From positions 48,405,591 to 48,469,590 of the forward strand of contig JAVLUZ010000154.1 of assembly GCA_036768485.1 (NCBI GenBank): a DNA stretch of 64,000 nt, given 5' to 3'. The notes beneath the pieces are model-generated. The model was not told the origin of the DNA, made no database searches, and saw only the letters and a program-made list of their open reading frames with translations. Source of the DNA: Mermis nigrescens (taxonomy: Eukaryota > Nematoda > Enoplea > Mermithida > Mermithidae). Position numbers and translations under genes: made by a program. Of the stretch, positions 2,855 to 60,360 are shown one piece after another (position 1 is the stretch's first letter; every line of letters starts with the position of its first letter).

Positions 2855-3701
2855 GTGAATTCCGACATCAAAATGGAAGACACTTTCAACACAGGACGCA
2901 TGGCACAATGGTGATGAAGAAATGTGAGGGGTGTGGCAGGGCAGTTTGGAAAAGATAGATTTTTATTAAAGTATACAGATGTCAGGCTAGAATTAAACAG
3001 AAATCCTGATGCATTTGTTTTGCAAAGGTTTAAGGGTGCCAAAAATGCATGCTTAAGTATTCAGCAAATGAATTTCTGCAAACAAAAGGCAGAAATTTTA
3101 AAAAGCATGGGGCTAGCTATCAGAAGAATACTTGCATCGAACACTAATAAATACCCCGTATGCACAGAGTTACGATGATGAATATACATATACCTAGCAT
3201 GTGTCAATCTACCCCCATAACACATTATTTTCAGGGCAGCTTCCTAGTATGCATTATTTTTGAATATTTGGATACAGATGCTTATAGAAGAAATATAAAA
3301 TCACCTTTCAACTTCAATTCATACAGCATTAACGATGCAAAAGTAATTTGCAGGGGCGTTACATTCCCTTCCCATCCATTCAGGCAGGACTTTAAAAGTA
3401 ACAAGTACCTTGGAGCTTTTGATCAATTATTCACAACACTTGATATTAGTTGGGACAATAAAGGGAATGGAGTGACAAGAGAAGGGTTCAAGAACTCTTA
3501 GTGTCTGTTTGCATTTGATCTAACACCTAACGGAAATGATGGTGGGCACTGGGATTTAATAAAAGAAGGCACAACTAGCATTGAAATATCATTTGCTGAA
3601 AGAATTCCCAATATGGGCATTGAAAAGATTGTTTACACCAAGTTTGATAATTTAGTAATGCTATATAGTACCGGAATATTATATATGATTATAATGCTTA
3701 A
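2855..3701 (+). pseudogene. PolB leader fused to F54H12.2-like Polinton capsid protein (broken)
   Basis: The first ~25 codons (NSDIKMED...) match the start of the PolB gene at 47,056. From about 2,955 the sequence instead matches the F54H12.2-like protein of Polintons, usually regarded as a jelly-roll capsid protein. Visible family signatures are DVRLELNRNPDAF, the TFAFxxDLTP-type block (CLFAFDLTPNGNDGGHWDL) and IVYTKFDNLVML near the C-terminus. The reading frame changes at about 3,060 and 3,240, and an in-frame TAG precedes CLFAF at about 3,500. The 5' half of the capsid protein is missing. The family is usually near 400 residues; roughly 240 codons remain. I cannot say from the fragment whether it is a major or minor capsid protein. 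Confidence 0.78.
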
Positions 3702-4234
3702 AAGTGAATACCTTTCAGCTCAATAGTATATAAAAAGGCGATCAAGTAGTTGATCAAAATTTTCTTGGTATTTCCCAAGCAATAGATTACTGACAATTAT
3801 CTATAAAACCAGCCACATTTATCATGAATATAGATGATAGTACAAAGCCCGGTTCACATTTAATGTGTGTATTTTCTGTTATGCATGATACTTGCAACTA
3901 TTTTGATAGTTACAGTATCCCGCCTGATGAGCAAACACAGAAACACATTCTACAATATGCTACAAAAACACATAATAATAGAAAAGGCATTCAAAAGCTT
4001 TTAACGTCTACATGTGGACAAATGTGCGTACATTTTACAATTTGGCGTTGCCGAAGGGTGCCCATGAAATTATTATCACAAAGCTTGAATAAAACTTATG
4101 CAAACGAATTTGTAACCAGTTTTGTAAATAGTATATTTAAGTTTAACACTGTTATCATAGATCAGGATTTCATCATCAACCAAATTTGTCGAAAATGGAT
4201 CATTTTCACGCAACATTACCATCCAACACTATAA
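3702..4234 (+). pseudogene. Adenain-type cysteine protease of Polinton A
   Basis: The open part is 3,824-4,234 (136 codons from ATG). It keeps the catalytic elements expected of the adenovirus-type maturation protease family: the His in PGSHLMC, the Asp in YFDSY, and the Cys in STCGQMC with the family's CG pair. The usual Trp after the His is Leu here. The N-terminal ~40 codons upstream (3,705-3,820) match the start of the intact-looking copy at 48,045 but are broken by stops and indels. In the element this enzyme would process virion proteins. It directly follows the capsid gene, as in copy C where the gap is two bases. Confidence 0.82.
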
Positions 4235-4245
4235 GCGATAGGCGA

Positions 4246-4940
4246 AATAGGCCTGTGCACTTCATCGTACATTTACCACAAAAAATTGAAACTAATTAGT
4301 GATTGGGAGTGTGGCCTCTCAGAATCTCTATATATACGCACAACTGGCAGATGTTAAAAAGTCTGAAAGGGAAATTAGAGTTACAAGCAGAAATATCTAG
4401 CTTTTGCATTAGAGGGTTTTTATGATTCTATTGACATATTTGTGAATAGTTTGAAATTATGGTGGTATGCCCAAAGGAGGCTTAGGAGAGATAGTACAGT
4501 TTAAATATAGTCAGTTAATAAAACGTATGCAGATTGTAATATCAAAAGACCATATCAAAAAAGTAATACTGTCGGAAAAAATGGTCAAGATTTCGGGATT
4601 TGACAGTGCATGTGATGGAAGAAACATCCTGGGAAGTTGGGGAGCCAAATCTAGTAAGTGCAGGGTTCAAAATTATGTATAATTACGACAACATTCTAGA
4701 ACCACAGATCATAGGAGATGTTTCTGCACCTCTTTTGCGTATTATAAATCTTGAGGGATCTTACTTAATGTTAGTGATAAAATTGATCACACTCCCAACT
4801 ATGTCCTAGTTTTAGTAAAAGACATTTCTCGCAGAGAAATTAGCATAAAAGACAATTTAAATGAGTTTATTCCATTTATCTTACAGAAAGTGATTGTCAA
4901 GCTGCATTTTAGAAAGATTAAACCTTCATATTTCTAGATG
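4246..4940 (+). pseudogene. Penton-like minor capsid protein of Polinton A (degenerate)
   Basis: It is homologous throughout to 48,560-49,275. Recognisable pieces are HKKLKLISDWECGL near the start and NILEPQIIGDVSAPLLRIIN in the C-terminal part at 4,690-4,760. In Polintons this C-terminal signature belongs to the single-jelly-roll minor capsid (penton) protein. Many stops and frame changes break it, so it cannot encode a protein. The 3' end (KLHFRKIKPSYF, then TAG) is well kept about 45 bases before the TBP start. Confidence 0.72.
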
Positions 4941-4979: not shown

Positions 4980-5498
4980 ATGGTTACAATTCAAAATATT
5001 GTTTCTACAGCTCGAATCTCTTGAAAGCTTTGAAATTTGTATAAAATTAAGAGAAGTTGTGATGGGGTAGAAAACGATCATAGAAGATTTAATGCTATGA
5101 TAATAAGAATAAAAGACCCCAAAACAACAGCTCTGTTATTCAGTACTGGCAAACTCGTAAGCATTGTTGCTAAAAGCGTTGAACAAAATAAAATTGCGAA
5201 CAGAAAAATTTGCAAAATGTTGGAGAAAAGTGGATATGAGCTCAAAGCAATTGAACATAGAATTCACAATATTATGGGGTTGGGAAATTTAGGTGCAAAT
5301 ATAAATTTACAAGCTTTAGCACAAAGATACACAAAATTTGTTGAATACAAGCAAGAATTATTCCCTGGTTTGAAAATACGATTTCCAGATGGCCCACCCT
5401 CTGCCCTTATTTTTATGATGGGAAAAATTGTTATAACAGGCGCGAGAAATAAAGCACAACTGAAACAATTTCAAAAACGTGTAATGTGTTTGATTTAA
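4980..5498 (+). pseudogene. TATA-binding-protein homologue encoded by a Polinton
   Basis: The predicted protein follows the cellular TBP core along its whole length. It starts with TIQNIVSTA at the position of the QNIVST of TBP. Repeat 1 has RRFNAMIIRI and TTALLFSTGKLV; repeat 2 has QELFPGLKIRF and PSALIFMMGKIVITGA. The four phenylalanines of these blocks (RF, LLF, ELF, LIF) are the DNA-kinking residues of TBP. There is no N-terminal extension. The ATG at 4,980 is followed by two in-frame TGA codons near codons 15 and 18; downstream of them 153 codons are open to TAA at 5,498. It ends the plus-strand virion gene block. The family role is TATA-box binding and initiation-complex assembly; use on the element's own promoters is my inference. 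Confidence 0.9.
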
Positions 5499-5609
5499 GC
5501 ATTCAAAATAGTTTGATCATAAGGTTATTGTTTATTCAAAATGTTGTGCAAACAGAAAGGACGACAGTGCAAGACTGTACCCAGGGCACAAAACAGAAAA
5601 ATACTCGCC

Positions 5610-40271: not shown

Positions 40272-40566
40272 AGCCAAATCTAGTAAGCGGGGGTTTGAAA
40301 CTATGTATGTTTACGCCAACATTTTAGAACCCCAGATCATAGGAGACGTTTCAGCACCTCTTTTGCGTATTATAAATGTTGAGGGATCTTACTCTAACGT
40401 AATTGATAAAATTTATGACACGCCCCTACTATGTCCGTTTTAGTAAGAGACATTTCTAGCATAGAAATTAACATAAAGGACAATTTAAATGAGTTCATTT
40501 CATTTATCTTGGGGAAAGTGATTGTCAAGCTGCATTTTAGAAAAATTAAACCATCGTATTTTTAGA
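40272..40566 (+). pseudogene. Penton-like minor capsid C-terminus (Polinton B)
   Basis: It encodes YVYANILEPQIIGDVSAP and LLRIINVEGSYSNVIDKIYD, then VKLHFRKIKPSYF and TAG. This is the C-terminal region of the Polinton minor capsid protein. One frameshift lies near 40,425. Everything upstream is deleted or replaced by the hairpin element. Confidence 0.72.
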
Positions 40567-40607
40567 TATAAATAATCGTGTCTATTTAAAATTCACCATT
40601 CTCAATT

Positions 40608-41144
40608 ATGATTACAATTCAAAATATTGTTCCTACAGCTCGAGTCTCTTCAAAACTTTTAAATTTGTATAAAATTTAGAGGACTTGTGATGGGGTAGAA
40701 TACGATCATAGAAGATTTAATGCTATGATAATAAGAATAAAAGACCCCAAAACAACGGCTCTGTTATTCAGTACCGGCAAACTCATATGCATTAGTGCTA
40801 TAAGCGTTGAACATAATAAAATTGCGAACGGAAAAATTTGCAAAATGTTGGAGAAAAATGGATACGAGGTAAAACTAACTGAACATAGAATTCACAATAT
40901 TGTACGGGTCGGGAAATTTAGGCGCAAATATAAATTTATGAGATTTAGCACAAACATACAAAAAATTTGTTGAATATGAGCAAGAATTATTCCCTGGTTT
41001 AAAAATACAATTTTAGTGATGGCCCACCCTCTGCCCTTATTTTTATGACGGGAAAAACTGTTATAACAGGCGCCAGAAATAAAGCACAACTGAAACGCTT
41101 TGAGAAATGCATATTGTTTGACTGATGCATTCAAAATAGCTTGA
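40608..41144 (+). pseudogene. TBP homologue (Polinton B)
   Basis: Same gene as at 4,980 and 49,316. The start reads MITIQNIVPTARVS without the TGA codons seen in the other copies. A TAG follows in the LYKI block (about codon 24), then FNAMIIRI and TTALLFSTGKL. A frameshift falls at about 40,910 after HNIVRVG, another near 41,015, and QELFPGL and TVITGAR-type repeat-2 sequence follows. Comparing copies shows each lesion is private, so the ancestral gene had an intact frame. Confidence 0.85.
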
Positions 41145-41284
41145 GCATAAGGTTTATGTTTATTCAACACCTTGTGCAAATAGAAAGGTCAGCTATTGAA
41201 TGTTGCACAATGCGTGCTACCTAAACTGTATGCAGGGTTGAATGCATACAGCCCTGCGGTCTTACAAAACAGAAAAATACTTAC

Positions 41285-42825: not shown

Positions 42826-42932
42826 AATAGTTAATGTTTATTATCTTTGTTCAGATGGCGTTACTGAAATAGGCATCCTGTACCTGAAGGGCTCATGCAA
42901 CCTAGGGAGAAATTAGACATTCTGCGCCCGCA
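42826..42932 (-). repeat. Right terminal repeat of Polinton B, inner part
   Basis: Reverse complement of about 39,070-39,180 (CTAATTTCTCCCTAGGTTGC, GCATGAGCCC, GTACAGG). It ends in CCCGCA (42,927-42,932) where Polinton C begins; the repeat resumes at 52,611. Confidence 0.85.
42927..42932. other. Target-site duplication CCCGCA, left of Polinton C
   Basis: Identical to 52,611-52,616. Six bases is the Polinton-typical length. Confidence 0.88.
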
Positions 42933-43134
42933 AGTAGTAAGGGTGGCCCGTCTGGATTCTCCGTGCTTAAGCATAGAACGTGCTTAAGCATAGAGATTCC
43001 ATTTGGACCACGCACGCTTTTAGTACACTTGCACTCAGCCGCTTGAATCACCAAATTTTTGGCTATACTACTACACATAGGCGTGAAGCGCCCAACAATG
43101 AACAGTCGGTTATACAGGATGGGCGGAGCCAATT
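42933..43134 (+). repeat. Left terminal inverted repeat of Polinton C
   Basis: About 202 bp, pairing with 52,410-52,610. The TGCTTAAGCA palindrome is at about 42,957-43,002. The inner edge is GGAGCCAATT. A shorter, partial second unit of the TACTACACATAGGC to GCCAATT part follows at 43,170-43,243. Confidence 0.9.
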
Positions 43135-43550
43135 AATTTTAATTTGCATAACTAGCTAGCAGCCTCCCCCATGCTAATGTTACTACACATAGGCATGAAG
43201 CGCCCAACAATGCACAGTTGGTTATCCAGGACAGGCGGAGCCAATTGCTGCTCATATAAATTTGAGAGAGAGTGAGTAGAAATGAGAAAAAAATTTTTCA
43301 TAGCTAACTGCAGATCAAAACATGCTGTTTTGAGCGTTTTAGGCAAGCTCTACAAGAAAATATTAAAAATATTCTAAGATATAATTGACAATCACATTCG
43401 AAATAATTGCTATACAATAGAAATTGGTAACAAAATACATGAATAAATTCCTACGCATTAGAATGCCAGTTTTAAGCTACATGCCCACTAAAATTTAAAA
43501 AACCAACAGAGATTTTTAACACTGATTTTACATAACATAAAATTGCTCAC

Positions 43551-43925: not shown

Positions 43926-44251
43926 GTTAGATGATGGTTAATACAGTGAGGAGCAGAGTTGTGAAATGAAAATCCACAAATTTTCATTCATTTATACTCA
44001 CAAAAGTTGGCTTAAATTAAGAAACTGGCGCGCATTTTGTTTAACCAGATGGAAATGAACACCTTAAATTTTATCTGATGATACACATGAAACTATATGG
44101 ATGAGCAAGAAATGATTCCACTCCAAGTTGAAATGAATAACATATGTAAATTAGTTAAAATCGCTTTGCGCCTATGAACTATGAATAAAAATGATCTCGA
44201 TGCATTGAAAATGAATGATAAATGAGCTTGAAGCTAGTTTTAGTAACATTT
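43926..44251. other. F-box gene 5' flank
   Basis: Contains the TATA box at 43,991-43,996 (minus) and AACTGGCGCGCATTTTGTTT, shared with 5,780 in relic A. Otherwise no gene. Confidence 0.5.
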
Positions 44252-44694
44252 AGACGCCTGTCTTATGTCACCCGCAGTGCAGCTCAATATAGTTTCAAGA
44301 GCTTTGCTTAGTAATAATAAAAGTGTATAGCATGAATAACATGTTTCGCCCTACAAGAACTTAGCTAGACAAAGCTTATCTTTGAAAAAGCTAGACGCCA
44401 TTCTTATGTCACCCGCAGTGCAGCTCAAAATAGTTTCAAGAGCAATGCTTAGTAGTAATAAAACTGTATAGCATGAATAACATGTTTTGCCCTACAAGAA
44501 CTTTGCTAGGCGAAGCTTATCTTTGAAAAAGCTAGACGCCAGTCTTATGTCACCTGCAGTGCAGCTCAAAATAGTTTCAAAAGAAATGCTTAGCAGTAAT
44601 AAAACTGTATAGCATGAATGACATGTTTTGCCCTACAAGAACTTCGCTAGGCGAAACTTATGTCACCCGCAGTGCAGCTCAATATAGTTTCAAG
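44252..44694 (+). repeat. 141-bp tandem repeat, about 3.2 units
   Basis: Units begin AGACGCC at 44,252, 44,393 and 44,534. They contain CTTATGTCACCCGCAGTGCA, TAAAACTGTATAGCATGAAT and GCCCTACAAGAACTT. A last partial unit starts near 44,658. Non-coding. Confidence 0.9.
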
Positions 44695-44769
44695 CCGCCA
44701 TGCGGTACGATGCCTATTGTTTGTGGCTTTAGGTAGGTCGATCAAAAAACTTTGTTACAAACGCTTGCT

Positions 44770-45034
44770 ATCCACACATGGGCTTGGGGGTTTGGGGGTA
44801 TGCACCCCCCAGAAGTTGAAATACTCCCCCCAGAAATCAAAATACCCCCCCCCAGAAAATTTTTTTGCCTTTTTAGCAATTTTTTGATGCCATTGGATAG
44901 TGCTCAATGAGAAACGTCGAAAAATGGTGTTTTTCGCCATATGACCACTTTTAAGACCATTTTTTTGACCTTTAAAAATTTTTTCACCCCCTCCAGAAAT
45001 TTTTTCACCCCCCCAGAATTTTGGTGCTACCCAC
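44770..45034 (+). repeat. Dispersed C-run repeat that truncates PolB
   Basis: CCCCCCAGAA-type words, with ATGGTGTTTTTCGCCAT in the middle. Inverse copy at 29,975-30,200. The PolB reading ends exactly at its edge. Confidence 0.65.
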
Positions 45035-47056
45035 CTATGTTGCTATCGTTAATGAGCAGTCAAACAGATCCATCCCTGTCTCAGCTATAAATAAATTGCG
45101 GAATTTGAGGCAGCATCTTCTTAAAATGTCAACATTGGACTCACAATAAGTCAAGAGTTCCGATTTGAAATCAAAAATTTTGCCCTTTTGTTGGGTGTAC
45201 CATTTTTGAAAACTTTCTTTGTTCTTTGAACTCATAGTGGCTGGGGAGTAGTACCATGCGTCTGGCCATTCACCCACATAATTTTCGTTCGCCTTTGTAT
45301 TGAACAGATGCGGGAAAAAGCCTTTTTTGAGCTCAGGCTCATCAAACGTTTTTGGCAGAGCGGATAGGGCCATGGGCAGAAAATTGAATGAGTCGATTAG
45401 TTTTACTGATCCAGCGCTCAGGCTCATAATTTCTAACCCTTTTGTGACAATGGTGGGCGCAATAGCTTGTTTAAACAGATATTTTAAAATAAAATGTCCA
45501 TCAAAACCTTTTGCATTATGGGCGATTGCTATAGCATTTTCGAGACCAAAAAGGAAATCGCAAAATGCATCAGTACAATTATTGCCATAAAATATGCGCC
45601 GGTTTTTGCCACATTTATTGCAATGTCCAAGTAACTTCGCCACTGTACATACAATATGTGCTATACACAAATTGGGTTCATGCTTGAGTCTTGAATTTCC
45701 GCAGGTCTTTTCTTGTCTCATCTCAAAATCAAAAAACACATATTTGGTCTTTTTCTTTTCATCTTTTTTGCCAGATACAACTTGCATATAACATTTATGA
45801 TCAACCGTAGGTGCATCAGATTTACACGTTTTACAATAAAAGTGGCCACATTTATGCTTCCGTATTTTATCAACTCTATTTACATGTCAGCCACAGGTTT
45901 CACATAGCATGGTTTGTTGACAAACCGATTGTTGATTTTTTCCGACTTTTTTATGATTTTCAAAGCAGCTTTGTCCCCTAAATAGGCGATTACAGTCTGC
46001 ACATTCTGTGAGAGCAACGTTCGGACATGCTGGACCATAGCAACATGGGCAAATTTTAGAGCACTGATGTTGATTGGCATTAGAATAGCCAACATTACAA
46101 TTTTCGCAAAAGTAGCTGCAATTCATAAAGCCAGCCATGCTGCCTATGACGTCAAAATGATTATTGTTATGACACACATGTACAATTTTTCTGCAGATGG
46201 CCCTTCAAAAATTATGGCATTACAGAAATCGGCACTAAAGACTTTAATTTGAAAATTTGGCATTGCAGCCTGCAATGCCTGCAGCTCTGGTATACCGCAA
46301 GGGCCAACATGGTCTTGAAGGCCTGCGAGATTCATCAACTCCTTTGCACTATTTCGCTGCATCGTGTACCGATATGTGTCACCCATGCACATATGTTTAT
46401 ATTTAGATTTTAGAGTTTTATTGTCAGGCTTTTCCATATGTAGAGCACGCGCTTTTGCTACTACTAATGCTCTTGGCAAAAATAAATTATCATTATTCTC
46501 AATTTTAACAAAGCAGCGTTTTGCCTTCATTTATTTTTCCAAATTTATAAATTTGCGCTTATGCTGAGCTGAACTGTTTGGTGGACTAACCTGCACTATT
46601 TTCATCCGCGTTTCTGTCTCTTCAAGGTGCACTTCCTCGTTTGACTGTAAAATGAGCTTGATTGTATGTACAATTTGTTCACCGTTTATCTGTTCACCTT
46701 TTCAAAAGGGCACAATTGCCGGTTTCTTTAGCATTGGGTGTGTAATTTGCAGGCCTACCATGTCCATCGTGTTAGAATCGTCCAAAATCTGTGTGATGGC
46801 ACTGTCAAAAATTTTGGACAAACTTTTTTCCAAGTCAAGGCAATCCAAATTTTTAAAGTTCAACGTATACACTTGGCCTTCCGTATTGAATCGTTTTATT
46901 TTCTGCGTTTTCGGCTCCCCCAACTCGTAAAATTCCTCTGGTGGGTACCACTCGTCCACAACTTCAACTGTCCTCCCACTCCTCCCGCATTTCTTTGTCC
47001 GTTTCATACCACACGTCTTGTGTTAAAAATTCGTCCATCTCAATGTTGGAATCCAT
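45035..47056 (-). pseudogene. Protein-primed DNA polymerase B of Polinton D (N-terminal and exonuclease parts)
   Basis: The ATG at 47,056 begins MDSNIEMDEF. The N-terminal region follows (FLPRALVVAKARALHMEK, PCGIPELQALQ, IKVFSADFCNAIIFEGP). Next is a Cys/His-rich stretch at about 45,890-46,120 (YFCENCNVGYS, CADCNRLFRGQSC), then the 3'-5' exonuclease domain in an open frame 45,035-45,787: Exo I VFFDFE, Exo II AHNAKGFDGHFILK and Exo III YCESNVDILRRC. It ends at LTIAT, so the whole polymerase palm is missing, cut off by a dispersed repeat. At least five frameshifts or stops lie upstream of the exonuclease. In the family this enzyme replicates the element by protein priming. Confidence 0.88.
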
Positions 47057-47145
47057 TTGAATGAGGAAAACAATTTAAGAGCAAAATTGAGAGGTTCAAA
47101 AGGGTTGGAGATATCAGAGAATGATTTTTTTCCTCCCTCCTCCCT

Positions 47146-47154
47146 CCTTTTATA
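47146..47154 (-). promoter_or_regulatory. TATA box of the PolB gene
   Basis: TATAAAAGG on the minus strand, about 95 bases before the ATG at 47,056. A purine-rich GGAGGGAGGAGGGAGGAAAA run and AATCATTCTC follow, as in the other copies. Confidence 0.6.
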
Positions 47155-47379
47155 TTTTCTGAGAAATGACTACTCTTAGAATCAGACAAACCGGAAAAAA
47201 ACCGGAAATTGTTGGACTTTGGACTTTACAAAAAAGAAAAACTTTTATAAAATAACAATTGTCTGCATTTTAAACTAAAAATAAGATAAAATAAAATTTG
47301 TAGACAGCAACTAATAATAACTGTTTGCATTTTGAAATAAAAATCGGATAAAATAAAATTTGCAGTCAGTATATAGGAT

Positions 47380-47610
47380 GACCATCTCTGGGCGCTTTGA
47401 AGTAAAAGTTTAGAGGGTTGTCCCTCTAGTGTGGCGTTTTGTGCTTATGATTCATGGGTTGGCCTTTTCGGCTCTATGGGGCTATATGTTTTAGGGTTAT
47501 GCGTAGTACAGGCTTATAAAAGGCTTGAAGCGCCTTCTATGCAGAGTCTCCATGTTTAAGCGTGTGCTATGGTTAACCATTGTAGAGCTCAAGGGGCATG
47601 GAGTACTACT
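47380..47610 (-). repeat. Right terminal repeat of Polinton D
   Basis: It ends GGAGTACTACT at 47,610. The palindrome core (GAGTCTCCATGTTTAAGCGTGTGC...) is at about 47,544-47,590 and degenerate GGCGCTTT units lie inward. Capsid-coding sequence starts abruptly at 47,611. The left end of D is not identifiable, so D is truncated. Confidence 0.65.
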
Positions 47611-48042
47611 CAGATGCATATAGGGGGGATATAAAAAAATCTCCTTTCAATTTTAAATCATACAGCATAAATGATGCAAAAGTAATTTGTGGGGGCGTTA
47701 CCTTCCCCTCCCACCCATTTGGGCTAGACTTTAAAAATAACAAGTACCTCAGAGCTTTTGATCAATTATTCGAAACACTTGATATTAGTCGGGACAGTAA
47801 AGGGAACGGGGTGACAAGCGAAGGGTTCAAAAACGGTCAGTGTCCCTTTGCATTTGATTTGACTCCAGACAAAGATGACGGCGGACATTTGGGATTTAAT
47901 TAGGGAAGGTACAACTAGCATTGACATATCATTTTCCGAAAAAATTCCTGATACGGGCCTTGAAGTGATTGTTTATGCCGAGTTTGATAATTTAGTAATG
48001 TTAGATAAGAAGAGAAACGTAATGTATGATTATAATGCTTAA
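47611..48042 (+). pseudogene. F54H12.2-like capsid protein, C-terminal part (Polinton C)
   Basis: It encodes SPFNFKSYSINDAKVICGG, FDQLFETLDISRDSKGNGV, QCPFAFDLTPDKDDGGH and, after a one-base insertion near 47,892, EVIVYAEFDNLVMLDKKRN and VMYDYNA before TAA. This C-terminal signature belongs to the F54H12.2-like Polinton protein. The N-terminal two thirds are missing: Polinton D ends exactly where the homology starts. The stop lies two bases before the protease ATG, a compact virus-like arrangement. Confidence 0.8.
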
Positions 48043-48044
48043 AC

Positions 48045-48555
48045 ATGAATACCTTTCAACTCTCAAACGTTTTAAAAGGCGACCAAGCGGTCGGTCAAAA
48101 TTTTCTTGGTGTCTTCCCGAGTGATAAATTACCACCCATTTTTAGCAAGCCTGCTGCATTGGTAATGAATATGGACCCTAGTACCCAACCTGGCTCGCAT
48201 TGGATGTGCATGTATTTTGACGCGCATGACTCATGCGACTATTTCGACAGCTACAGCTTAGTGCCTGATAACCAAACACAAAATTATATTCTACAGTATG
48301 CTACAAAAATTAAGCATAATAAAAAATGCGTGCAGTAGCCACTAACGTCTACGTGCGGCCAAATGTGTGTTTATTTTTTAATTTGGAGGTGCAGAGGGGT
48401 GCCCATGAAACTAATTCTAAAAAGTTTAGAAAAAAGTTATGCAGACAAATTTGTAACGGGTTTTTGTAAATAGTCTATTTAAGATAAACACCTCAGTCAT
48501 AGATGAAGATTTTATCATAAACCAAATTTGTGAAAAATGGATCAATCTTACATAA
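48045..48555 (+). pseudogene. Adenain-type protease (Polinton C), most complete copy
   Basis: The ATG at 48,045 begins NTFQLSNVLKGD, with a clear N-terminus lacking in copy A. Catalytic-region motifs are PGSHWMCMYFD (His), CDYFDSYS (Asp) and STCGQMCVYF (Cys). A premature TAG separates the Asp and Cys motifs (about 48,337). One extra T in the FVTGF block shifts the frame before DEDFIINQICEKWI. Length to the final stop is about 170 codons, usual for these maturation proteases. Confidence 0.82.
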
Positions 48556-48559
48556 ATTT

Positions 48560-49275
48560 GCCTAGCAACACGATAAGCGATAGGTAAAATACGCCTTCAA
48601 ACTTTATTGTACATTTACCACAAAAATTAAAACTAATCGGTGATTGGGAGTGTGGTCTCTTGGAATTTATTTACCCCCATAATTGGCAAACAATAAGAAA
48701 ACACGAAACGGAAATGAAAATTACAGATGCCTATGGTATTGAATATAAACTTCAAATGCAGGAAGGATGCTACGACTCCATTCAGGAATTTATAGAGGCT
48801 ATGAAATTTTGTGTAGAAAAACTAGAAGGAGTAGAATTCAATTATTACGCTTCAATAAAACGCGTTTCTGTAATGATGCTCGAATCCTTTGTGAAATCAG
48901 TGAAACTGTCCAAAAGAATAGCACATATTTTAGGATTTAAAGAGACAGTACTAAAAGATACAGGATGGTCGGATAGGGAGCCGGACTTGGTGGGGGTGGT
49001 CTTGAAACCATGTGCGTCTATGCCAACATTTTAGAACCCCAGATCGTAGGCGATATTTCAGCTCCTCTTTTGTGCATCATAAACGTGGAAGGAACATACC
49101 CCAACATCATTGACAGAATCTATGATTTTCCTCACTACATACCCGTCCTCGTAAAAGGTATCTCTAGCATAGAAATAAACACAAAAGATGATTTGGATCT
49201 ATTAATACCATTTATTTCCAAAAAGTGATTGTCAAGTTGCATTTTTTGAAAGATTAAACCTTCATATTTTTAGAT
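48560..49275 (+). pseudogene. Penton-like minor capsid protein (Polinton C), best copy
   Basis: Early sequence reads NFIVHLPQKLKLIGDWECGL, the characteristic start of the Polinton minor capsid protein. An open stretch follows (48,660-49,034) with RISVMML-type and GWSDREPDLVG segments. The C-terminal part (49,010-49,228) reads VYANILEPQIVGDISAPLLC, then VEGTYPNIIDRIYD and HYIPVLVKGISSIEI. Frames shift at about 49,000 and 49,220, and the exact start is unclear. In the virion model this single-jelly-roll protein forms the vertices. It ends about 45 bases before the TBP start. Confidence 0.78.
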
Positions 49276-49315
49276 ATGAATAGTTGTGTCTATTAAAATT
49301 TTATCATTCTCAATC

Positions 49316-49853
49316 ATGATTACGATTCGAAATGTTGTTTCTACAGCTTGAGTCTCTTTAAAGCTTTTAAATTTGTATAAAATTAAGAGAACTTGTGATG
49401 GTGTGGAATTTAATCATAAAAAGTTTAACGCTGCAGTAATTCGAATAACAGAGCCAAAATGTACAGGCCTGTTGTTTAGTAGCGGCAAACTTGTTTGCAT
49501 CGGTGCTAAAGGCGTTGAACAAAACAAAATTGTGAACGAAAAAATTTGTGAAATGTTAAAGCAAAGTGGATACGAGCTAAAAGTGACTGAACATAAAATC
49601 CGCAATATAGTCGGATCAGGAAGTTTAGGTTTGATGATTAATTTGCGGAATTTAGCTCAATATTACAAAAAATTTTGTTGAATACGAGCAAGAATTATTC
49701 CCTGGTTTAAAACTACAATTTCCAGATGGTCCGCCATCTGCCCTTATTTTTACAATGGGAAAAATTGTTATAACGGGAGCTAGGAGTGAGGCGCAACTGA
49801 AATGCTTTGAGAAATGCATAATGTGTTTGATTGATGCATTCAAAATAGCTTGA
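49316..49853 (+). pseudogene. TBP homologue (Polinton C)
   Basis: It starts MITIRNVVSTA, with a TGA as the next codon. Then VSLKLLNLYKIKRTCDG, FNAAVIRITEPKCTGLLFSS, GKLVCIGAKGVEQNK, RNIVGSGSL, one frameshift at about 49,675, EYEQELFPGLKLQFPDG and PSALIFTMGKIVITGAR, ending FKIA and TGA at 49,853. Both TBP repeats and the four DNA-intercalating Phe positions are kept. Relative to copy A it is clearly diverged at the amino-acid level while keeping the core motifs, which suggests that the gene was under selection before decay. Confidence 0.9.
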
Positions 49854-49959
49854 GCAAAAAGGTTGATCTTTATTCAAAACACTGTGCAAACAGAAAAGGT
49901 TGGCAGCGCACGACTGTATGCAGGACAGTATGTCTACAATGAATTCTTCATTGTAACAT

Positions 49960-51160
49960 TTTAGCCCATGCAACAATATTATGCACCTGTGTAGCATTTA
50001 GAAAAAAAAGATGGCGCTGCAAGAGAATTTTGACCCGTTCACTTTTGTTTTCGAGCAGAAATAAATAGCTTAGAAACAGCATAATTTACTTTCAGGTCAT
50101 GTATAGATTTTGAACGAACGTATTTTTGCACTGCCAATTGCTCAATTGGTGGACTAGTCCCCTGCGCAAAATATAAAAATGCAGAAAATGGAGTAATATG
50201 CTCTTTATGTGCGGTCAGTTTTGATGCGTATTTTTATTAAATTGAAAGCTACCTACTTTAAAAAATAACGACATATTAAAAACCCACCACCAAAACAAAT
50301 CACCCCTTATTCACTCTTGATACTTTTGTTGTTTGTAAGCTTAAATGATAATAATTTATGTAAAATTTTGATCAAACAAAAGTTTATAATTAGTAAAAAT
50401 TTTTATAAATTATTTATTGGTGAAACAGTTATACAAGTTTTAAGAAAATGCATTTTACTCTCACCTTCAAGGTCATTGTATAGCTCTCAAACGAACCTGA
50501 GCCCTATCTTCTTCTCCACCACGTGGTGGAGTTTCTGGCCTTGAGAGTCATTACAACTCAGAAGAGGTCTGCCACCTTCAATTTCGCAGGTGCATCCCCT
50601 AACTCTAAAAAGGATGCAAAATTACTAGGAAGATTAAAATAATGAATTTAAATTTATATTTATACCTCTAATATTATCACGGATGTTGCAAAAATACATA
50701 AAAAACTTTGGAGGCGTTTCCATTGTATACGGATTGTTAAGATCTAAATAATAATTGCAAATTAAGAACAAACATTTAATACAATAAGACACACCTCAGA
50801 GTGAATAGATATATGTTTGTGTAAAAAGTGAAAAAAGCAATAAGTACTAGCGCTTACATTAAAAATGACACGCAACAATGTAAATAATAAAAATAAAAAG
50901 GGGGCAACATTCCAAGAAAATTTATTCAAATGGTAGACATAGACATAGACAACTATGACGTGCAATAACATGCACTTCTGCATGTTATGGTGCGAATTGT
51001 TGGAAGTGTTTAGATTACCAAAAAGCATCATGCATCTACTTTATACAGCTGTATGGTATTAGGAAAAAGATTGCGCTGCAACCACATTTTAACCCGCCCA
51101 TTTATGTTTTTGAGCAGAAATAAATAGTTTTAGGAGCAACATATTTCAACCGCATTACCT
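49960..51160. repeat. Direct ~120-bp repeats around a non-coding interval
   Basis: 49,985-50,100 and 51,035-51,150 share TTAGRAAAAA..GATGGCGCTGCAA-like sequence, TTTTGACCCG and TTTTYGAGCAGAAATAAATAG. Between them lies AT-rich sequence with a perfect 18-bp palindrome CTCCACCACGTGGTGGAG at 50,514-50,531. No gene. Confidence 0.6.
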
Positions 51161-51479
51161 GGAGGAAAGCTTATTGCATATTCTATTTTTGTGGGGATCC
51201 TTAACACAGGATTCTAATGAGCGAAATGCAGAAGTGCGCGCTTCATGGTTATTGATGATACTCATCACAATTATTCAAATTCCGTATGGTAATTTTATGT
51301 TCCGTGCGGTAATGGGTAGCCACCCATTTCAGTTTAAATGTTCGCTTAAAATTTAAGTTGAACAAACTAACACCACACATAAAAATGGTTGAATGAATTC
51401 TTTGAACTCTCTAGAATGATCAAAACCTATATGTTTGGCATTTATACATATAGTGCATTCATCTGATTGCAAAATCAAT

Positions 51480-52390
51480 ATATCAATTGCACGTCAAAAA
51501 CAGTCGCGCATGAGCATAGAAAGATTATTTTCTGATGCGTTTATGAAATCGAGTCTCAAGTAAGATAAACGTGGTGCATTTGCGATAATACCGGACAAGA
51601 AACCCATGTATAGCCAATACATATGACACCCATCCAATACTACATTTTTCGGATTTATGCGCTTAACTAGCTCAACAAAGTCATAATCAATGCAGCAGTC
51701 TTCCGCAGTGAACTGCTCTACTTGAAACGCATGATTTGGAATCCAATTGGGGGGTATGGATTGTCATGTCTACAAGATGAAGGTTTTTGCACCAGAACCT
51801 GCTCGGAAATGCTCTATCAGGATAGGTCCCCAATGTGAGTTGAAGCGGAATCCTAAAGATGTAGTGAATTGAGTTGGTGAAGAATGCATATTTTTTTATT
51901 GTCAAAAACACGCAGTTTATTTATTTTTATTATTTTTTTCTTATTTTCTTTATTTTTTTAGAAAAAGAGTAGAAATTAATAAATTACTTTTCAACCGTAC
52001 ACCCTACTCACTCACCCTTACAACATATCGTTCCTGGGTTAGTGATGTCAATAATATGTTGAAGTGCTTCCGAATGTTGTCGGATGGCCTGGAAGCGGGT
52101 CGAGGGCTGTATAACATGAAGTCCACTGTGGGACCTTCACAAATAGGCCATAGGTCAATATTTTTGTCCACATTTCAATCACAAAAGCTTATTGCATATT
52201 CTTCCTCCAGTACTAGCCTGCGAGCACGCCCAACCATTAGGGTTAGCTTGGAGTGCAACTGAGTTGGGGTGGACTTGGAAAGAGTATTCCACTTGCGCGA
52301 TGTTTGGGAAATTTTTGATTTGCTACATACATCTAATACATTAAAAACTCGACGCTTGAGCTTGACTGGTAGATCAGCAATGGACAGCAT
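51480..52390 (-). pseudogene. F-box-like gene, two exons (right copy in Polinton C)
   Basis: Exon 1 (52,390-52,016) starts MLSIADLPVKLKRRVFNVLD, then SRKWNTLSKS, an F-box pattern (LP..LK..VF..LD......SRKWN). It ends NPGTICCK-like before donor GTGAGT. The acceptor ACATCTTTAG precedes exon 2 (51,852 to about 51,480), which encodes FWCKNLHLVDMTIHTPQLDS and, after a frameshift, NPKNVVLDGCHMYW, IIANAPRLSYLRLDF and IDILILQSDEC. The latter half resembles the leucine-rich C-termini of F-box proteins. A stop in exon 1 (FCD then TGA/TAA, about 52,175) and one in exon 2 disable it. The ATG lies 20 bp inside the right terminal repeat, so its promoter must be within that repeat. Confidence 0.62.
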
Positions 52391-52409
52391 AGCAATTGGG
52401 TTGAAGATA

Positions 52410-52610
52410 AATTGGCTCTGCCCGTCCTGGATAACCGACTGTGCATTGTTGGGCGCTTCACGCCTATGTGTAGTAGTATAGCCAAGAATTTGGTGATTCA
52501 AGCGGCTGAGTGCAAGTGTACTAAGAGCCCGCGTAGTCCAAATGGAATCTCTATGCTTAAGCACGTGCTATGCTTAAGCACGAGACTCCAGAAGGGCCAC
52601 CCTTACTACT
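52410..52610 (-). repeat. Right terminal inverted repeat of Polinton C
   Basis: Pairs with 42,933-43,134 at about 90 percent. The palindrome is at about 52,541-52,590. Outer end CCCTTACTACT at 52,610. Confidence 0.9.
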
Positions 52611-52616
52611 CCCGCA
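52611..52616. other. Target-site duplication CCCGCA, right of Polinton C
   Basis: Matches 42,927-42,932 exactly and 39,075-39,080 in reverse complement. Confidence 0.88.
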
Positions 52617-52888: not shown

Positions 52889-53470
52889 GCTGACCCTGGC
52901 CTGTCTGCGTAAATGTTCAAAAATTTACCCTCCACATCGCATACTGCTTGGCAATTTATAGAATGTTGTCTTTTATAATTTACATGAGAAATTTCGTCAT
53001 CACTGGGCGCTAAAACCAATACATACATAGGTACAATCAATGCATTCTATGACATTTGGTATTTTGCATTTTCTATAAAATTTTTGCTTGATCGCGTTCA
53101 AATCTTCAATATTTCCTGCAGAAAATATAACTTTGTTCAGCATATACTTGAATAATTGATCCGTGGTTTCAGTAACAATTCTTGGAACAGTTGATTTCAA
53201 ATGCAAATGAAACAGTTTCTCCACAGCAAAATAAGGGCTTCCAGTTCTGTAGAGATGCAATGTTATTGCCAATTTTAATTTCCGTTGAACAACTTGAATT
53301 TCCCTCTACAGGTACCTTCTCCAGTAAATAAGCATGAATTCGTTTGAAACAATTTTTTGTAAATCCAAAATGAACATAAAAATCTTTATCCAAAAGGTCA
53401 TAAAAATTACAAGACTTGAAGGATTGTTGTTTTGATTGAAAACGAGTTAAACCATCGAAAATGCCATATT
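52889..53470 (-). pseudogene. HARBI1-like Harbinger transposase, N-terminal and central parts
   Basis: The minus strand encodes NFYDLLDKDFYVHFGFTKNC, ITLHLYRTGSPYFAVEKLF, a helix-rich middle (TTDQLFKYM), then PNVIECIDCTYVCI (first catalytic Asp in the CID block), SDDEISHVNYKRQHSINCQA and NIYADRPGSA. The order is that of PIF/Harbinger DDE transposases. The reading stops at the Polinton B edge; its continuation, HDSRIL, is at 38,905. Several frameshifts are present. Confidence 0.82.
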
Positions 53471-53571
53471 TTTACAAAAACAAGTTTCATGTGTGCATGC
53501 TGGCGCAAAGAATAAGCTTTTAATCAAAAGTTTATCCAGCCCCCTGCCTCGTCTAGTGATTCATCTAAATC

Positions 53572-53703
53572 ATGTCTAACTTTGACGAAATTTTGACGCG
53601 TCTAACTTAGACGTCTAATGAGAAACACACTTAAGAATCAACACGTCTGAATCTACAAATTTCGATGCGTCTTAGCTTAGATGTCTTATGAGAAACCGAC
53701 CCC
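53572..53703 (-). repeat. Harbinger terminal repeat
   Basis: GACGCGTCTAACTTAGACGTC with ATGAGAAAC occurs twice, ending GAGAAACCGACCCC. Related inverse sequence is at 37,368-37,490. Copy of 350-482. Confidence 0.65.
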
Positions 53704-53842
53704 AGGATGATAATTAATTGAATATTCATAGTCAGGTTCTGTTCTTCCTTGGACACCTGAGCAACTTAAGTTTGCTCCATATGTCAAGCAACCTCAAAAC
53801 TTGATGCTTAAACTCGATAGGAAGACAGTTAAGAGACATCAT
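53704..53842 (-). pseudogene. 5' part of the F-box-like gene, cut by Harbinger (right block)
   Basis: ATG-ATG at 53,842 begins MMSLNCLP, then EFKHQVLRLLDIWSKLK. Homology ends at the Harbinger terminal repeat. Removing the Harbinger element would bring it next to 37,367, where exon 1 resumes. Confidence 0.58.
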
Positions 53843-53949
53843 TGTATAATGTAAAATGAGGACAATTGCATTTTGGGGACTGGTCAAGGATTTTTATACT
53901 TTTTAAAGCATGGGATTATGGACTGTTTCTTCTTTGGCAGCTGAAAATC

Positions 53950-54430
53950 TTTATACTATTGTGCTAGTAAGATTTCTATGAAAATTTTTCTCATATAGTT
54001 TTGGATAATGGAAAACTTAGTTTGATTTGGACCTGCTTTTGTAACAAAGAGTTGCTAGTTAGATTTCCATAATATTTTGCTTTTGTACCTTTCTAGATTA
54101 TGAAAAAACTTAGCTTGAATCGACAGCAGCACTTTAAAATAGATTTCTATAACATTTTTCTTTTGTAGTTTTCTGTGTAGTCAAAAACTTGAAGTTGGGC
54201 CTATTTTTGTATTAAAGATTCACTAGCTGACGCCAGTGACCATTTAGATTTCAATAGTGATTTGCCTTTGTACTTTTCTTGAAAATAAAAATTTAGTTTG
54301 AGTAGCAATTCAAAATAGATTTTGATAATATTTTGCTTTTGTACCTCTTGGAATAATGAAAAACTTAGCTTGAGTCAACAGCTGGAGTTCAAAATATATT
54401 TTCTAATATATTTTTCCAGTTTCAAGAGCA
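53950..54430. repeat. Polinton-family tandem array (right block)
   Basis: Copy of 730-1,200. Confidence 0.75.
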
Positions 54431-54514
54431 AATAATTTATCACACTAATAAAACTGTGTTATAGTATGTGCTCATATGCCGCCTAGTAATTAGTCAGTTC
54501 AATGCTATGATCTT

Positions 54515-54920
54515 TATTCTGATGGCTTTATAAAGATTGGCACTAAAAACTTTAATTTGAAAATTTGGCATTGCAGCTTGCAGCCACCTGCAGTTCTGCT
54601 ATACCATAAATTCATGTGTGGTCTTGAAGTCCTGCTTTTGTCATAACTAGTGCTGACCTGTGCTGTGTTTTCGTTTAAATGTATCCTTTTTACACATGTT
54701 TTTATAGTGCCATTCTAAAGTTTTCTCATTGGTATTTTCCATATGCAGTATGTGTGCTTTTGCAACAACTAATGCCCTAGGCAAACACAGATTATCACTA
54801 TTTTTAATTTTTACAAAGCATTTTCATCTTCATTTTATGTTCTGAATTTACAATCTATCTTTATGTTGGCCTGAACCGTTTGGTGGACTAACCTGAGTGA
54901 CGAAGTGTACTAGATGCACT
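54515..54920 (-). pseudogene. PolB N-terminal fragment (right block)
   Basis: Copy of 1,295-1,700 with the same lesions. Confidence 0.68.
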
Positions 54921-56076
54921 GTGACCTAGGGTGAAATGTGGCGCTTTGCGCCTGTGCATTATGGCCCAAAACTCTACACTTAAGTCCTTACGCTTGAAGT
55001 CTATGCTTAAGCACGTACTGTGCTTTAGCACACTGCTGGAATGAGAGGGGATGGGGCGACCGCCCCTGTTGTCAAATAATATTTGGGCGCAATGAAGAAT
55101 AGATGTGTATTTTTGATGATTTTAGCCATTCTTTATCATTAATTTTCTAATTTCTCCGGCACTTTGCGCTAGGATAGTACTCGTTAATGACATTTACTGA
55201 CAATTTTTGGCACTTGAAAAGACATAAATTTACGTCAGAAGAGTAGTTGTACGAACAAAGATTTGTAGCTTCTACAATGATTTATCGAGCAATTTTGGCG
55301 AACTGTTTGGTGGACTAACCTGAGTGAAGTAGTGTATCAGATGCACTGTGCCCTAGGTGAGATGATAAGATATCAAATTTATAGTTAATTTTCCGAATTT
55401 ATCGCTTATCAAATTCTTTTAGTCAGCATAACAATGGGCTCTTTTTTACAGTTTATGCTATTATCTACGTTCTTGTCAGCAATAAATGGCGCAATAGGTT
55501 CAAAAACAGACTCAATAGTAGTAGTGCTCCCTGCATCATGCTTAAGCATAGCACATGCCTAAGCATAGAGACTCTGACATTGCAGGCGCGAAGTGCCTAC
55601 AATGGGGCCATACTACACAATGAAGCATGCTACATGTTAAAGTATAGGTGCAAAGTGCCAAATTTCGGGCCATACTACACATTAAAGCACGCTACACGTT
55701 AAAGTAAAGGCGCAAAGTGGCGAACTTGGGAGGGCCAACCCTGACTCATAGGCGCAAAGTGCTAACTTGAGCTATACTACATTTTTAATGCAATTCGCTC
55801 AGGGTTGGTCACCCTAGAAGAGTCTGCAATCAGCAGCATTCTCCCCAAAAAGACCCCGGTTCGATTTTATCCTATTTTTAGTTCACAATGCAGACAATTA
55901 TGCTTATTTGATATAAGTTTTTAATTTTATGAAGTTCAAAGTCCGATAATTTCTTGTTTTTTTCCAGATTTTTTGAATCACCTGACTGGTGCTATCTCAA
56001 AACTATAAAACGAGAGATCAGGCAGGAAAAATCATTTTTCAGCATTTTTTGCTCAATAAGCTTTTCTTGATATACT

Positions 56077-56930
56077 GTGAATTCCGACATCAAAATGGAA
56101 GACACTTTCAACACAGGACGCATGGTACAAAGGTGATGAAGAAATGTGAGGGGTGTGGCAGGGCAGTTTGGAAAAGATAGATTTTTATTAAACTATACAG
56201 ATGTCAGGCTAGAATTAAACAGAAATCCTGATGCATTTGTTTTGCAAAGGTTTAAGGGTGCCAAAAAATGCATGCTTAAGTATTCAGTAAATGAATTTCT
56301 GCAAACAAAAGGCAGAAATTTTAAAAAGCATGGGGCTAGCTATCAGAAGAATACTTGCATCGAACACTAATAAATACCCCGTATGCAGAGTTACGATGAT
56401 GAATATACATATACCTAGAATGTGTCAATCTACCCCCATAACACATTATTTTCAGGGCAGCTTCCTGTATGCATTATTTTTGAATATTTGGATACAGATG
56501 CTTATAGAAGAAATATAAAATCACCTTTCAACTTCAATTTATACAGCATTAACGATGCAAAAGTAATTTGCAGGGGCGTTACATTCCCTTCCCATCCATT
56601 CAGGCAGGACTTTAAAAGTAACAAGTACCTTGGAGCTTTTGATCAATTATTCACAACACTTGATATTAGTTGGAACAATAAAGGGAATGGAGTGACAAGA
56701 GAAGGGTTCAAGAACTCTTAGTGTCTGTTTGCATTTGATCTAACACCTAACGGAAATGATGGTGGGCACTGGGATTTAATAAAAGAAGGCACAACTAGCA
56801 TTGAAATATCATTTGCTGAAAGAATTCCCAATATGGGCATTGAAAAGATTGTTTACACCAAGTTTGATAATTTAGTAATGCTATATATGTACCGGAATAT
56901 TATATATGATTATAATGCTCAAAAGTGAAT
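56077..56930 (+). pseudogene. PolB leader / F54H12.2-like capsid fragment (right block)
   Basis: Copy of 2,855-3,701. Here the DVRLELNRNPDAF part continues in frame further (KYSVNEFLQTKG) thanks to an A insertion, and the join at ...FSGQLPVCIIFEYLD is better preserved, so the two copies help read each other. The same TAG precedes CLFAFDLTP. The final TAA has changed to CAA. Confidence 0.76.
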
Positions 56931-57454
56931 ACCTTTCAGCTCAATAGTATATAAAAAGGCGATCAAGTAGTTGATCAAAATTTTCTTGGTATTTCCCAAG
57001 CAATAAATTACTAACAATTATCTATAAAACAGCCACATTTATCATGAATATAGATGATAGTACAAAGCCCGGTTCACATTTAATGTGTGTATTTTCTGTT
57101 ATGCATGATACTTGCAACTATTTTGATAGTTACAGTATCCTGCCTGATGAGCAAACACAGAAACACATTCTACAATATGCTACAAAAACACATAATAATA
57201 GAAAAGGCATTCAAAAGCTTTTAACGTCTACATGTGGACAAATGTGCGTACATTTTACAATTTGGCGTTGCCGAAGGGTGCCCATGAAATTATTATCACA
57301 AAGCTTGAATAAAACTTATGCAAACGAATTTGTAACCAGTTTTGTAAATAGTATATTTAAGTTTAACACTGTTATCATAGATCAGGATTTCATCATCAAC
57401 CAAATTTGTCGAAAATGGATCATTTTCACGCAACATTACCATCCAACACTATAA
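56922..57454 (+). pseudogene. Adenain-type protease (right block)
   Basis: Copy of 3,702-4,234. The open part 57,044-57,454 differs by one residue (SILPDEQ for SIPPDEQ). The His, Asp and Cys motifs are as in the left copy. Confidence 0.82.
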
Positions 57455-57465
57455 GCGATAGGCGA

Positions 57466-58158
57466 AATAGGCCTGTGCACTTCATCGTACATTTACCACA
57501 AAAAATTGAAACTAATTAGTGATTGGGAGTGTGGCCTCTCAGAATTCTATATATACGCACAACTGGCAGATGTTAAAAAGTCTGAAAGGGAAATTAGAGT
57601 TACAAGCAGAAATATCTAGCTTTTGCATTAGAGGGTTTTTATGATTCTATTGACATATTTGTGAATAGTTTGAAATATGGTGGTATGCCCAAAGGAGGCT
57701 TAGGAGAGATAGTACAGTTTAAATATAGTCAGTTAATAAAACGTATGCAGATTGTAATATCAAAAGACCATATCAAAAAAGTAATACTGTCGGAAAAAAT
57801 GGTCAAGATTTCGGGATTTGACAGTGCATGTGATGGAAGAAACATCCTGGGAAGTTGGGGAGCCAAATCTAGTAAGTGCAGGGTTCAAAATTATGTATAA
57901 TTACGACAACATTCTAGAACCACAGATCATAGGAGACGTTTCTGCACCTCTTTTGCGTATTATAAATCTTGAGGGATCTTACTTAATGTTAGTGATAAAA
58001 TTGATCACACTCCCAACTATGTCCTAGTTTTAGTAAAAGACATTTCTCGCAGAGAAATTAGCATAAAAGACAATTTAAATGAGTTTATTCCATTTATCTT
58101 ACAGAAAGTGATTGTCAAGCTGCATTTTAGAAAGATTAAACCTTCATATTTCTAGATG
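57466..58158 (+). pseudogene. Penton-like minor capsid protein (right block, degenerate)
   Basis: Copy of 4,246-4,940 with single-base deletions near 57,545 and 57,676. Confidence 0.72.
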
Positions 58159-58197
58159 TAAATAGTTGTGTCTATTTAAAATTCATCATTCTCAATC

Positions 58198-58716
58198 ATG
58201 GTTACAATTCAAAATATTGTTTCTACAGCTCGAATCTCTTGAAAGCTTTGAAATTTGTATAAAATTAAGAGAAGTTGTGATGGGGTAGAAAACGATCATA
58301 GAAGATTTAATGCTATGATAATAAGAATAAAAGACCCCAAAACAACAGCTCTGTTATTCAGTACTGGCAAACTCGTAAGCATTGTTGCTAAAAGCGTTGA
58401 ACAAAATAAAATTGCGAACAGAAAAATTTGCAAAATGTTGGAAAAAAGTGGATATGAGCTCAAAGCAATTGAACATAGAATTCACAATATTATGGGGTTG
58501 GGAAATTTAGGTGCAAATATAAATTTACAAGCTTTAGCACAAAGATACACAAAATTTGTTGAATACAAGCAAGAATTATTCCCTGGTTTGAAAATACGAT
58601 TTCCAGATGGCCCACCCTCTGCCCTTATTTTTATGATGGGAAAAATTGTTATAACAGGCGCGAGAAATAAAGCACAACTGAAACAATTTCAAAAACGTGT
58701 AATGTGTTTGATTTAA
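58198..58716 (+). pseudogene. TBP homologue (right block)
   Basis: Copy of 4,980-5,498. The 153 codons after the two TGA codons encode the same residues as the left copy; one silent change (GAG to GAA) lies in the KMLEKSG region. Same early stops. Confidence 0.9.
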
Positions 58717-58827
58717 GCATTCAAAATAGTTTGATCATAAGGTTATTGTTTATTCAAAATGTTGTGCAAACAGAAAGGACGACAGTGCAAGACTGTACCC
58801 AGGGCACAAAACAGAAAAATACTCGCC

Positions 58828-58972
58828 CTTGCAGACAATGGGTTGGTCGTTGTCATTGAGAATTTCTTTGGCATCTTCCAATTCATGCCCATCGTAGGTG
58901 ATAATAGCAAAGTGGATTTGAATGATAAAATAGTGGCACAGACCTCAATTTTTCATGCTTTTATATTCTCGC
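58828..58972 (-). pseudogene. F-box-like fragment (right block)
   Basis: Copy of 5,610-5,750. The TATAAAA box of the left copy is changed here to AATATAAAA by an inserted T. Confidence 0.48.
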
Positions 58973-58985
58973 AAAAGTAGCTTAA

Positions 58986-60286: not shown

Positions 60287-60360
60287 TCCCATTACAGACC
60301 AAGATGTACAATAAATAGGTGGCTTGAATCAATTAGGCGATTAAGGCTATTTGATCATGA

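Follow-up and report, generated by a model that had tools for sequence, protein, structure and literature searches.

Several lineages of Polinton (Maverick) transposons in the nematode Mermis nigrescens carry a gene for the TATA-binding protein (TBP) as a regular element gene, as shown by its synteny, by intact copies and by selection. We know of no report of TBP in Polintons. A Polinton/Maverick TBP is absent from the full-text literature searched, which left the nematode-Polinton study Jeong 2023 and Widen 2023 outside it, and priority is not certain; the accessible parts of PMC11071308 and PMC10120064 mention neither TATA nor TBP.

The window, by which we mean the whole stretch of 64,000 nucleotides analysed, contains four TBP copies (Table 1), and the places that a first-pass annotation had given for them are borne out by tblastn and Pfam. 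The copy under study (copy 3) lies inside a Polinton insertion (42933-52610), as indicated by its inverted arms, which begin AGTAGTAAGGG, by the same six bases CCCGCA on both flanks (exact), and by the element gene order, in which polymerase-B-side pieces on the minus strand (45038-46938) are followed on the plus strand by remnants of major-capsid-like (MCP-like), protease, penton-like and TBP genes. Neither a retroviral-type integrase nor an FtsK/A32-type packaging ATPase gave a match within the window, and the element seems shortened. The genome contains 58 matches to the left inverted repeat of this element (40 long, 18 short), and several of these, on our own reading of the match list, form inverted pairs 3.7-4.2, 9.5, 11, 13, 19 or 31 kb apart. 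On C672, C58, C282, C64 and C238 the repeat forms pairs that are a mere 3.7-4.2 kb apart, and pairs of this spacing look like short deletion derivatives of a Polinton.

Table 1. Features of the Polinton insertion and of the TBP copies in the window (L numbers denote fetched loci).
Feature	Position	Strand	Evidence or remark
MCP-like, protease and penton-like remnants of another element	2945..4934	+	tblastn
TBP pseudogene, copy 1	4980..5510	+	tblastn, Pfam TBP
Penton-like remnant before copy 2	40291..40562	+	tblastn
TATA box kept in spacer of copy 2	40567..40572	+	
TBP pseudogene, copy 2	40608..41152	+	tblastn, Pfam TBP
Left target-site duplication CCCGCA	42927..42932	.	flanks left repeat
Left terminal inverted repeat, begins AGTAGTAAGGGTGGCCC	42933..43140	+	repeat comparison
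DNA polymerase B piece of window element	45038..45787	-	Pfam DNA_pol_B_2 E 1.8e-18
Remnant, ORF family of L024:2418-3188, adjoins polymerase piece	46183..46938	-	tblastn 30% identity, E 4e-28
MCP-like remnant, two pieces	47610..48039	+	tblastn 82-84% identity to L026 ORF
Adenovirus-type protease remnant	48045..48546	+	tblastn 72-79%; Pfam Peptidase_C5 0.0017, below cut-off
Penton-like gene remnant	48537..49270	+	tblastn 87-89% to L057 gene
Altered TATA box in spacer: TATGAA, versus TATAAA in intact relatives	49275..49280	+	
TBP pseudogene, copy 3 (copy under study)	49316..49847	+	tblastn, Pfam TBP; first-pass span 49316-49853
F-box ORF, right end, overlaps inverted repeat	52178..52567	-	Pfam F-box E 8.1e-5
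Right terminal inverted repeat, ends CT	52404..52610	-	repeat comparison
Right target-site duplication CCCGCA	52611..52616	.	flanks right repeat
MCP-like, protease and penton-like remnants, duplicate of 2945-4934	56167..58152	+	tblastn
TBP pseudogene, copy 4, duplicate of copy 1	58198..58728	+	tblastn, Pfam TBP

Pfam TBP (PF00352) matches open pieces of all four copies, for which a full TBP core had been claimed (5034-5495 and 58252-58713, both E 2.4e-33; 40680-40970, E 5.1e-14; 49352-49678, E 5.5e-21), but none is an intact gene: every copy has stops, and the reading frame is also broken in copies 2 and 3 (40608 and 49316). The QNIVST start is found in copies 1 and 4, copy 2 having QNIVPT and copy 3 RNVVST instead; the second repeat of copy 3 continues in another frame; and only copies 1 and 4 have all four intercalating Phe positions within a single open frame. 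The distance of about 45 bases from the penton-like gene proved accurate, the TBP spans, which were set by tblastn with an intact relative as query, beginning 45 bases past remnant ends at 4934, 40562, 49270 and 58152. Copies 1 and 4 are held by segments 1-10727 and 53222-63953, which are mostly 94-100% identical and about 53.2 kb apart; they are thus one duplicated sequence, leaving three independent TBP copies in the window. This segment pair could be either a real tandem duplication or an assembly duplicate, and further matches to part of the unit lie immediately outside the window, on its upstream side. All four window copies are the dead remains of TBP-carrying elements. A fifth penton-like remnant (33851-34126) has no adjoining TBP match by tblastn. 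Elsewhere in the window (19422-22049), a perfect 941-bp inverted repeat overlaps a reverse-transcriptase ORF (RVT_1, E 3.8e-12), the C-terminal part of which resembles a GIY-YIG endonuclease, as in Penelope-like elements.

Across the genome (a 524-Mb assembly of 860 contigs) at least 150 Pfam TBP matches lie above the cut-off, 150 of 2,553 candidates having been scored, and many of these form one uninterrupted frame of 172-198 aa each. The worm's own TBP is encoded by at least two exons on C73. An HMM search, as proposed in the first-pass annotation, returned a strong two-repeat Pfam TBP match for all six open copies scanned (E 1.4e-41 to 3.4e-50). Twenty loci of 9-10 kb around TBP matches were fetched, hand-picked to span the TBP families rather than drawn at random. 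A clustered TBP ORF is present in 19 of them, and on our own reading 13 contain at least one MCP-like, penton-like, protease, integrase, ATPase-like or polymerase ORF cluster. Open TBP copies stand amid open capsid-type genes in L014, L024, L026 and L027.

The synteny count used the penton-like gene of L026 as query. It has 162 genome matches, of which 136, the last partial ones being left out, were paired with the 150 TBP matches listed (at least 150 in the genome). Among these listed matches, a family-A TBP lies downstream, on the same strand, of at least 61 of 68 full-length penton-like genes (at least 230 aa and at least 60% identical), and the two are separated by 42-57 bp in 58 of the 61 listed pairs. 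Five of the remaining seven also have a TBP in the fetched DNA (L047, L052, L053, L054 and L061), bringing the count to 66 of 68; the other two (C59:3909250 and C740:467153) are decayed, with 11 and 7 stops, and lie outside the fetched DNA. A TBP directly downstream of the penton gene, the arrangement first described from the window, holds for family A but only there: among the matches listed, TBP follows three of five penton-like genes that are 46-59% identical and none of the 15 under 46%, the most distant group. Partial penton-like matches that reach the gene's end have a TBP downstream in 13 of 28 cases, again among the matches listed. In other lineages TBP is found beside an ATPase-like gene (L024, L027) or a small cysteine-rich ORF (L009, L011, L028). 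The earlier view that the TBP belongs to the element, and is not a stray host pseudogene, is upheld by its occurrence after 66 of 68 penton-like genes and in these other Polinton lineages; the same two observations rule out one lucky junction as an explanation. Three TBP-polymerase pairs within 15 kb were found among the matches listed, versus 0.6 expected, the pairing having used 148 of the 150 listed TBP matches (host exons left out) and the best 80 of 168 PolB matches.

Two further ORF families recur in these loci. An F-box-type family is present in eight of the 20 TBP loci (L009, L010, L011, L012, L015, L018, L019 and L028), with Pfam F-box support for L010, L011 and the window ORF 52178-52567, and a link to host protein turnover is possible. 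A small conserved family with CxxC pairs (RKPYGRSIRPPIELCG...; L009:4165-4527, L011:4375-4758, L013:2372-2713 and L024:1568-1891) adjoins TBP in some lineages; it has no Pfam match over the cut-off and could be a zinc-binding factor.

The elements share with Polintons/Mavericks their AG...CT inverted repeats, 6-bp target duplication, family-B DNA polymerase and adenovirus-type protease, with an rve integrase seen in L024, and differ from them in that several Mermis lineages carry a TBP gene. Terminal inverted repeats with AG...CT ends and a 6-bp target duplication are present in the window element, and among seven elements the duplication is exact in five, matches at five of six bases in one and is out of register in another. 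The family-B polymerase, putatively protein-primed, lies inside the window element (DNA_pol_B_2, E 1.8e-18). L024 encodes an rve integrase (E 8.4e-14) plus Chromo (Pfam) beside a family-B TBP, and L026 an adenovirus-type protease (Peptidase_C5, E 1e-7), of which the window retains a remnant. Two matches fall below their cut-offs, namely Pox_A32 for the ATPase-like ORF of L024 (22.2 bits, cut-off 22.8) and Pfam DJR-like for the MCP-like ORF of L026 (20 bits, cut-off 27). The MCP and other element proteins found nothing in PHROGs, and the MCP profile nothing in PDB. The penton-like protein has no match in Pfam or PHROGs, so that "penton" is here a putative label.

Phylogenetic analysis (a final tree of 50 rows, five rows of the first tree having been removed) revealed two groupings of element-type TBPs. 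One comprises families B-H together with the outside relatives P0003, P0006, P0027, P0121, P0168 and P0223 (98/93), and the other family A with P0233, P0234, P0236-P0239 and P0241 (97/92). The outside relatives, which derive from metagenomes or read assemblies, are classed by TBP sequence, not by Polinton context. Family A stands beside the nuclear TBPs in the free tree with modest support (87/83), but the data do not reject a tree that unites all element-type TBPs (p 0.344); the element TBPs may have had one origin or two. The worm's own TBP falls among nuclear TBPs, those of nematodes included. Recent retro-copying from the host, against which a phylogeny had been suggested as a check, is rejected by the AU test for host plus family A (p 2e-11), as is a single group of the host TBP and all Mermis element TBPs (p 6e-74). 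We found 11 viral_contigs loci with a TBP, three of which supplied TBPs to the final tree, where these cluster with archaeal rows; scans of viral_contigs with TBP and MCP queries detected no relative of the Mermis elements.

Most TBP comparisons show purifying selection (16 of the 17 pairs with a computable ratio). In family A, dN/dS is 0.11-0.35 in the eight of 28 pairs with computable dS, the other 20 being saturated, and in families B-G it is 0.07-0.25 in eight of nine pairs, the ninth (L016 versus L022) having a value of 0.97. Between L026 and L014 the synonymous divergence of TBP is 0.283, versus 0.026 for the neighbouring penton-like gene, and between three subfamilies it is saturated for TBP versus 0.28-0.44 for the penton-like gene; in more distant pairs both are high. 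The penton-like genes of different subfamilies are 94-98% alike over their first 450 bases, while TBP and the DNA beyond differ, identity dropping toward the 3' end of the penton-like gene without recovery past TBP. Since TBP is more diverged than its neighbour and identity is lost at the neighbour's 3' end, the TBP end of the element seems to have been exchanged between lineages.

TATA boxes precede many element genes. For this count 75 of 99 element ORFs and 71 of 79 other ORFs (at least 90 aa, from the same loci) were kept, and 35 of the former have TATAWA 28-60 bp upstream of the start codon, compared with eight of the latter (Fisher p 3.4e-6). As controls, the bin further upstream has the motif in 4/75 and the opposite strand of the same stretch in 18/75, some of these perhaps from divergent promoters. 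A separate count against dinucleotide shuffles, which left out six of 19 TBP genes and 17 of 74 others (without 120 bp upstream, or near-identical), found TATAWA at -60 to -28 in 11 of 13 TBP genes (shuffle mean 1.3, maximum 4) and 27 of 57 other element genes (mean 4.5, maximum 12, 300 shuffles), a six- to eight-fold enrichment within TBP-bearing loci. The box frequently takes the form TCTATAAATA. In family A, 23 of the 24 TBP genes fetched outside the window have TATAWA at -47 to -32, within or bordering on the spacer that follows the penton-like gene, as do 17 of the 18 with an open frame of at least 175 codons; the exception in both counts is L049, an open frame that lacks TATAWA. Among the dead copies in the window the box is changed in three of four, equivalent to two of the three independent ones. 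Some loci have few boxes at this distance despite their TBP (L023 0/4, L019 1/5, L015 1/4). At L011:3991-4758 a divergent ORF pair has head-to-head TATA boxes between its members and looks like a two-way promoter. Because host TBP also binds TATA boxes, the boxes do not show the element TBP to be their reader; the first-pass suggestion that the element may bring its own promoter-recognition factor is strengthened by them, and we continue to infer it from sequence.

The working surface of the protein was compared over 17 element rows, nine nuclear rows and the outside relatives, with positions that we take to follow yeast TBP numbering and presumed factor contacts at E186/E188 (TFIIB stirrup) and helix 2 (TFIIA and regulators). 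The intercalating Phe residues (yeast F99, F116, F190 and F207) are kept in 15 of the 17 element rows; L009 and L015 (family D) have Tyr at F207, L015 has a gap at F190, and the outside relative P0234 has Leu at F99. Fourteen DNA-contact positions are mostly kept, with variation at T124, and Asn159 is lost in families B and C (Leu or Met). All element rows but one (16 of 17) retain E186 and E188, L015 having a gap there; among the outside relatives, P0237, P0238 and P0241 have another residue at 186. In contrast, the helix-2 pattern (R137, Y139, R141 and K145) as a whole is kept in none of the 17 element rows, whereas the nine nuclear rows keep it apart from one Tyr-to-Phe change. This basic helix is where nuclear TBPs meet TFIIA and regulators. 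By its residue pattern the element TBP would retain most of the DNA-binding saddle and the TFIIB contact, but not the basic helix of nuclear TBPs. It resembles eukaryotic nuclear TBP in its two-repeat core and in mostly keeping the DNA and TFIIB contact residues, and differs in having no long N-terminal extension and not the whole helix-2 pattern.

We propose, with a probability of roughly 0.6, that the element-encoded TBP brings host TFIIB and RNA polymerase II to element promoters. It would bind the TATA boxes preceding many element genes, its own included, would recruit host TFIIB and RNA polymerase II once bound there, and would act independently of host TFIID. Distinctly more tentative is the idea of a private promoter system, in which a transposon of perhaps only ~19 kb, with no RNA polymerase noticed in elements that were read in part, would use its TBP to read element TATA boxes, skip TFIID and the regulators, and leave the next step to host TFIIB and polymerase II; the end module that holds TBP might then be swapped between lineages, perhaps for promoter specificity or for escape from the host or from rival elements. 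An unlikely alternative is that the protein acts as a decoy, sequestering host TFIIB or promoter DNA so as to silence or divert the host's transcription, while host TBP reads the element boxes. The retained TFIIB-contact residues, combined with a helix-2 surface different from that of host TBP, would suit such a decoy, as would boxes equally usable by host TBP; against it, the protein retains its DNA-contact residues as well as the TFIIB face, and the TATA box of the TBP gene itself is conserved. TFIIIB steers the yeast Ty3 integrase to promoters, and the family-B TBP locus L024 carries an integrase with a chromodomain, so that a TBP directing the integrase to promoters, or acting at the ends in replication, can be envisaged; we regard this as improbable, as TATA boxes stand in front of many element genes and suggest a role in transcription.

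Purifying selection in nearly all computable pairs, retention beside 66 of 68 penton-like genes and the existence of several deep TBP lineages all speak against TBP as passenger cargo, captured and exchanged among elements but of no use to them. That reading, to which we give very little weight, would account for the varying position of TBP between lineages and for subfamilies in which TBP and the downstream DNA differ beside closely similar penton-like genes. It is just as hard to credit that some copies are now extra TBP paralogues serving the worm itself: many copies are open, but open TBPs stand amid open capsid-type genes in four loci, and the old window copies have decayed. Least credible, to the point of being negligible, is an origin of the copies by recent retro-copying of the worm's own TBP or by an assembly artefact. 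The near-identical duplication 53 kb apart in the window is a possible assembly duplicate, but relatives of the element TBPs are present in other public data, the host TBP groups with nuclear TBPs, and the AU test rejects joining it with family A or with all element TBPs.

Phycodnaviruses such as chloroviruses are thought to rely on host polymerase, and this reliance offers a precedent for a TBP without an RNA polymerase of its own. According to PMC5825884, TBP is encoded by mimivirus, chloroviruses and ASFV (B263R), and according to PMC4602308 Yellowstone Lake phycodnaviruses encode both TBP and TFIIB. Like these giant viruses and phycodnaviruses, the Mermis elements encode a TBP homologue, whereas the viral genomes are roughly ten times larger, no TFIIB gene was noticed in the Mermis elements, and the viral TBPs stand outside our tree. 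Among mirusviruses, PMC10132985 gives TBP in 59% of genomes and genomes of up to about 430 kb; in an alga, TBP is reported to be sporadic in viral elements of putative mirusvirus origin. A virus-borne TBP as a common gene is shared with mirusviruses, a likeness of gene content, but their genomes reach about 430 kb versus ~19 kb here, if the C775 repeat pair bounds the whole element. Animal TRF1, TRF2/TLF and TRF3 are alternative TBPs for a subset of promoters. They too are alternatives to TBP, but are encoded by the host and not, as here, by the element, the comparison with TRF2 being by description. The viral TBPs that we found described come from viruses with large genomes.

Eukaryotes and archaea share TBP as their central factor for promoter recognition. 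If the proposed loading of host TFIIB and RNA polymerase II by the element TBP is true, these elements may provide a small, testable case of a mobile element bypassing its host's main promoter-recognition complex while using the host polymerase, and they put on offer natural TBP variants without the regulator-facing helix pattern. The finding is also relevant to the question of how transcriptional control was acquired by Polintons and by their larger viral relatives.
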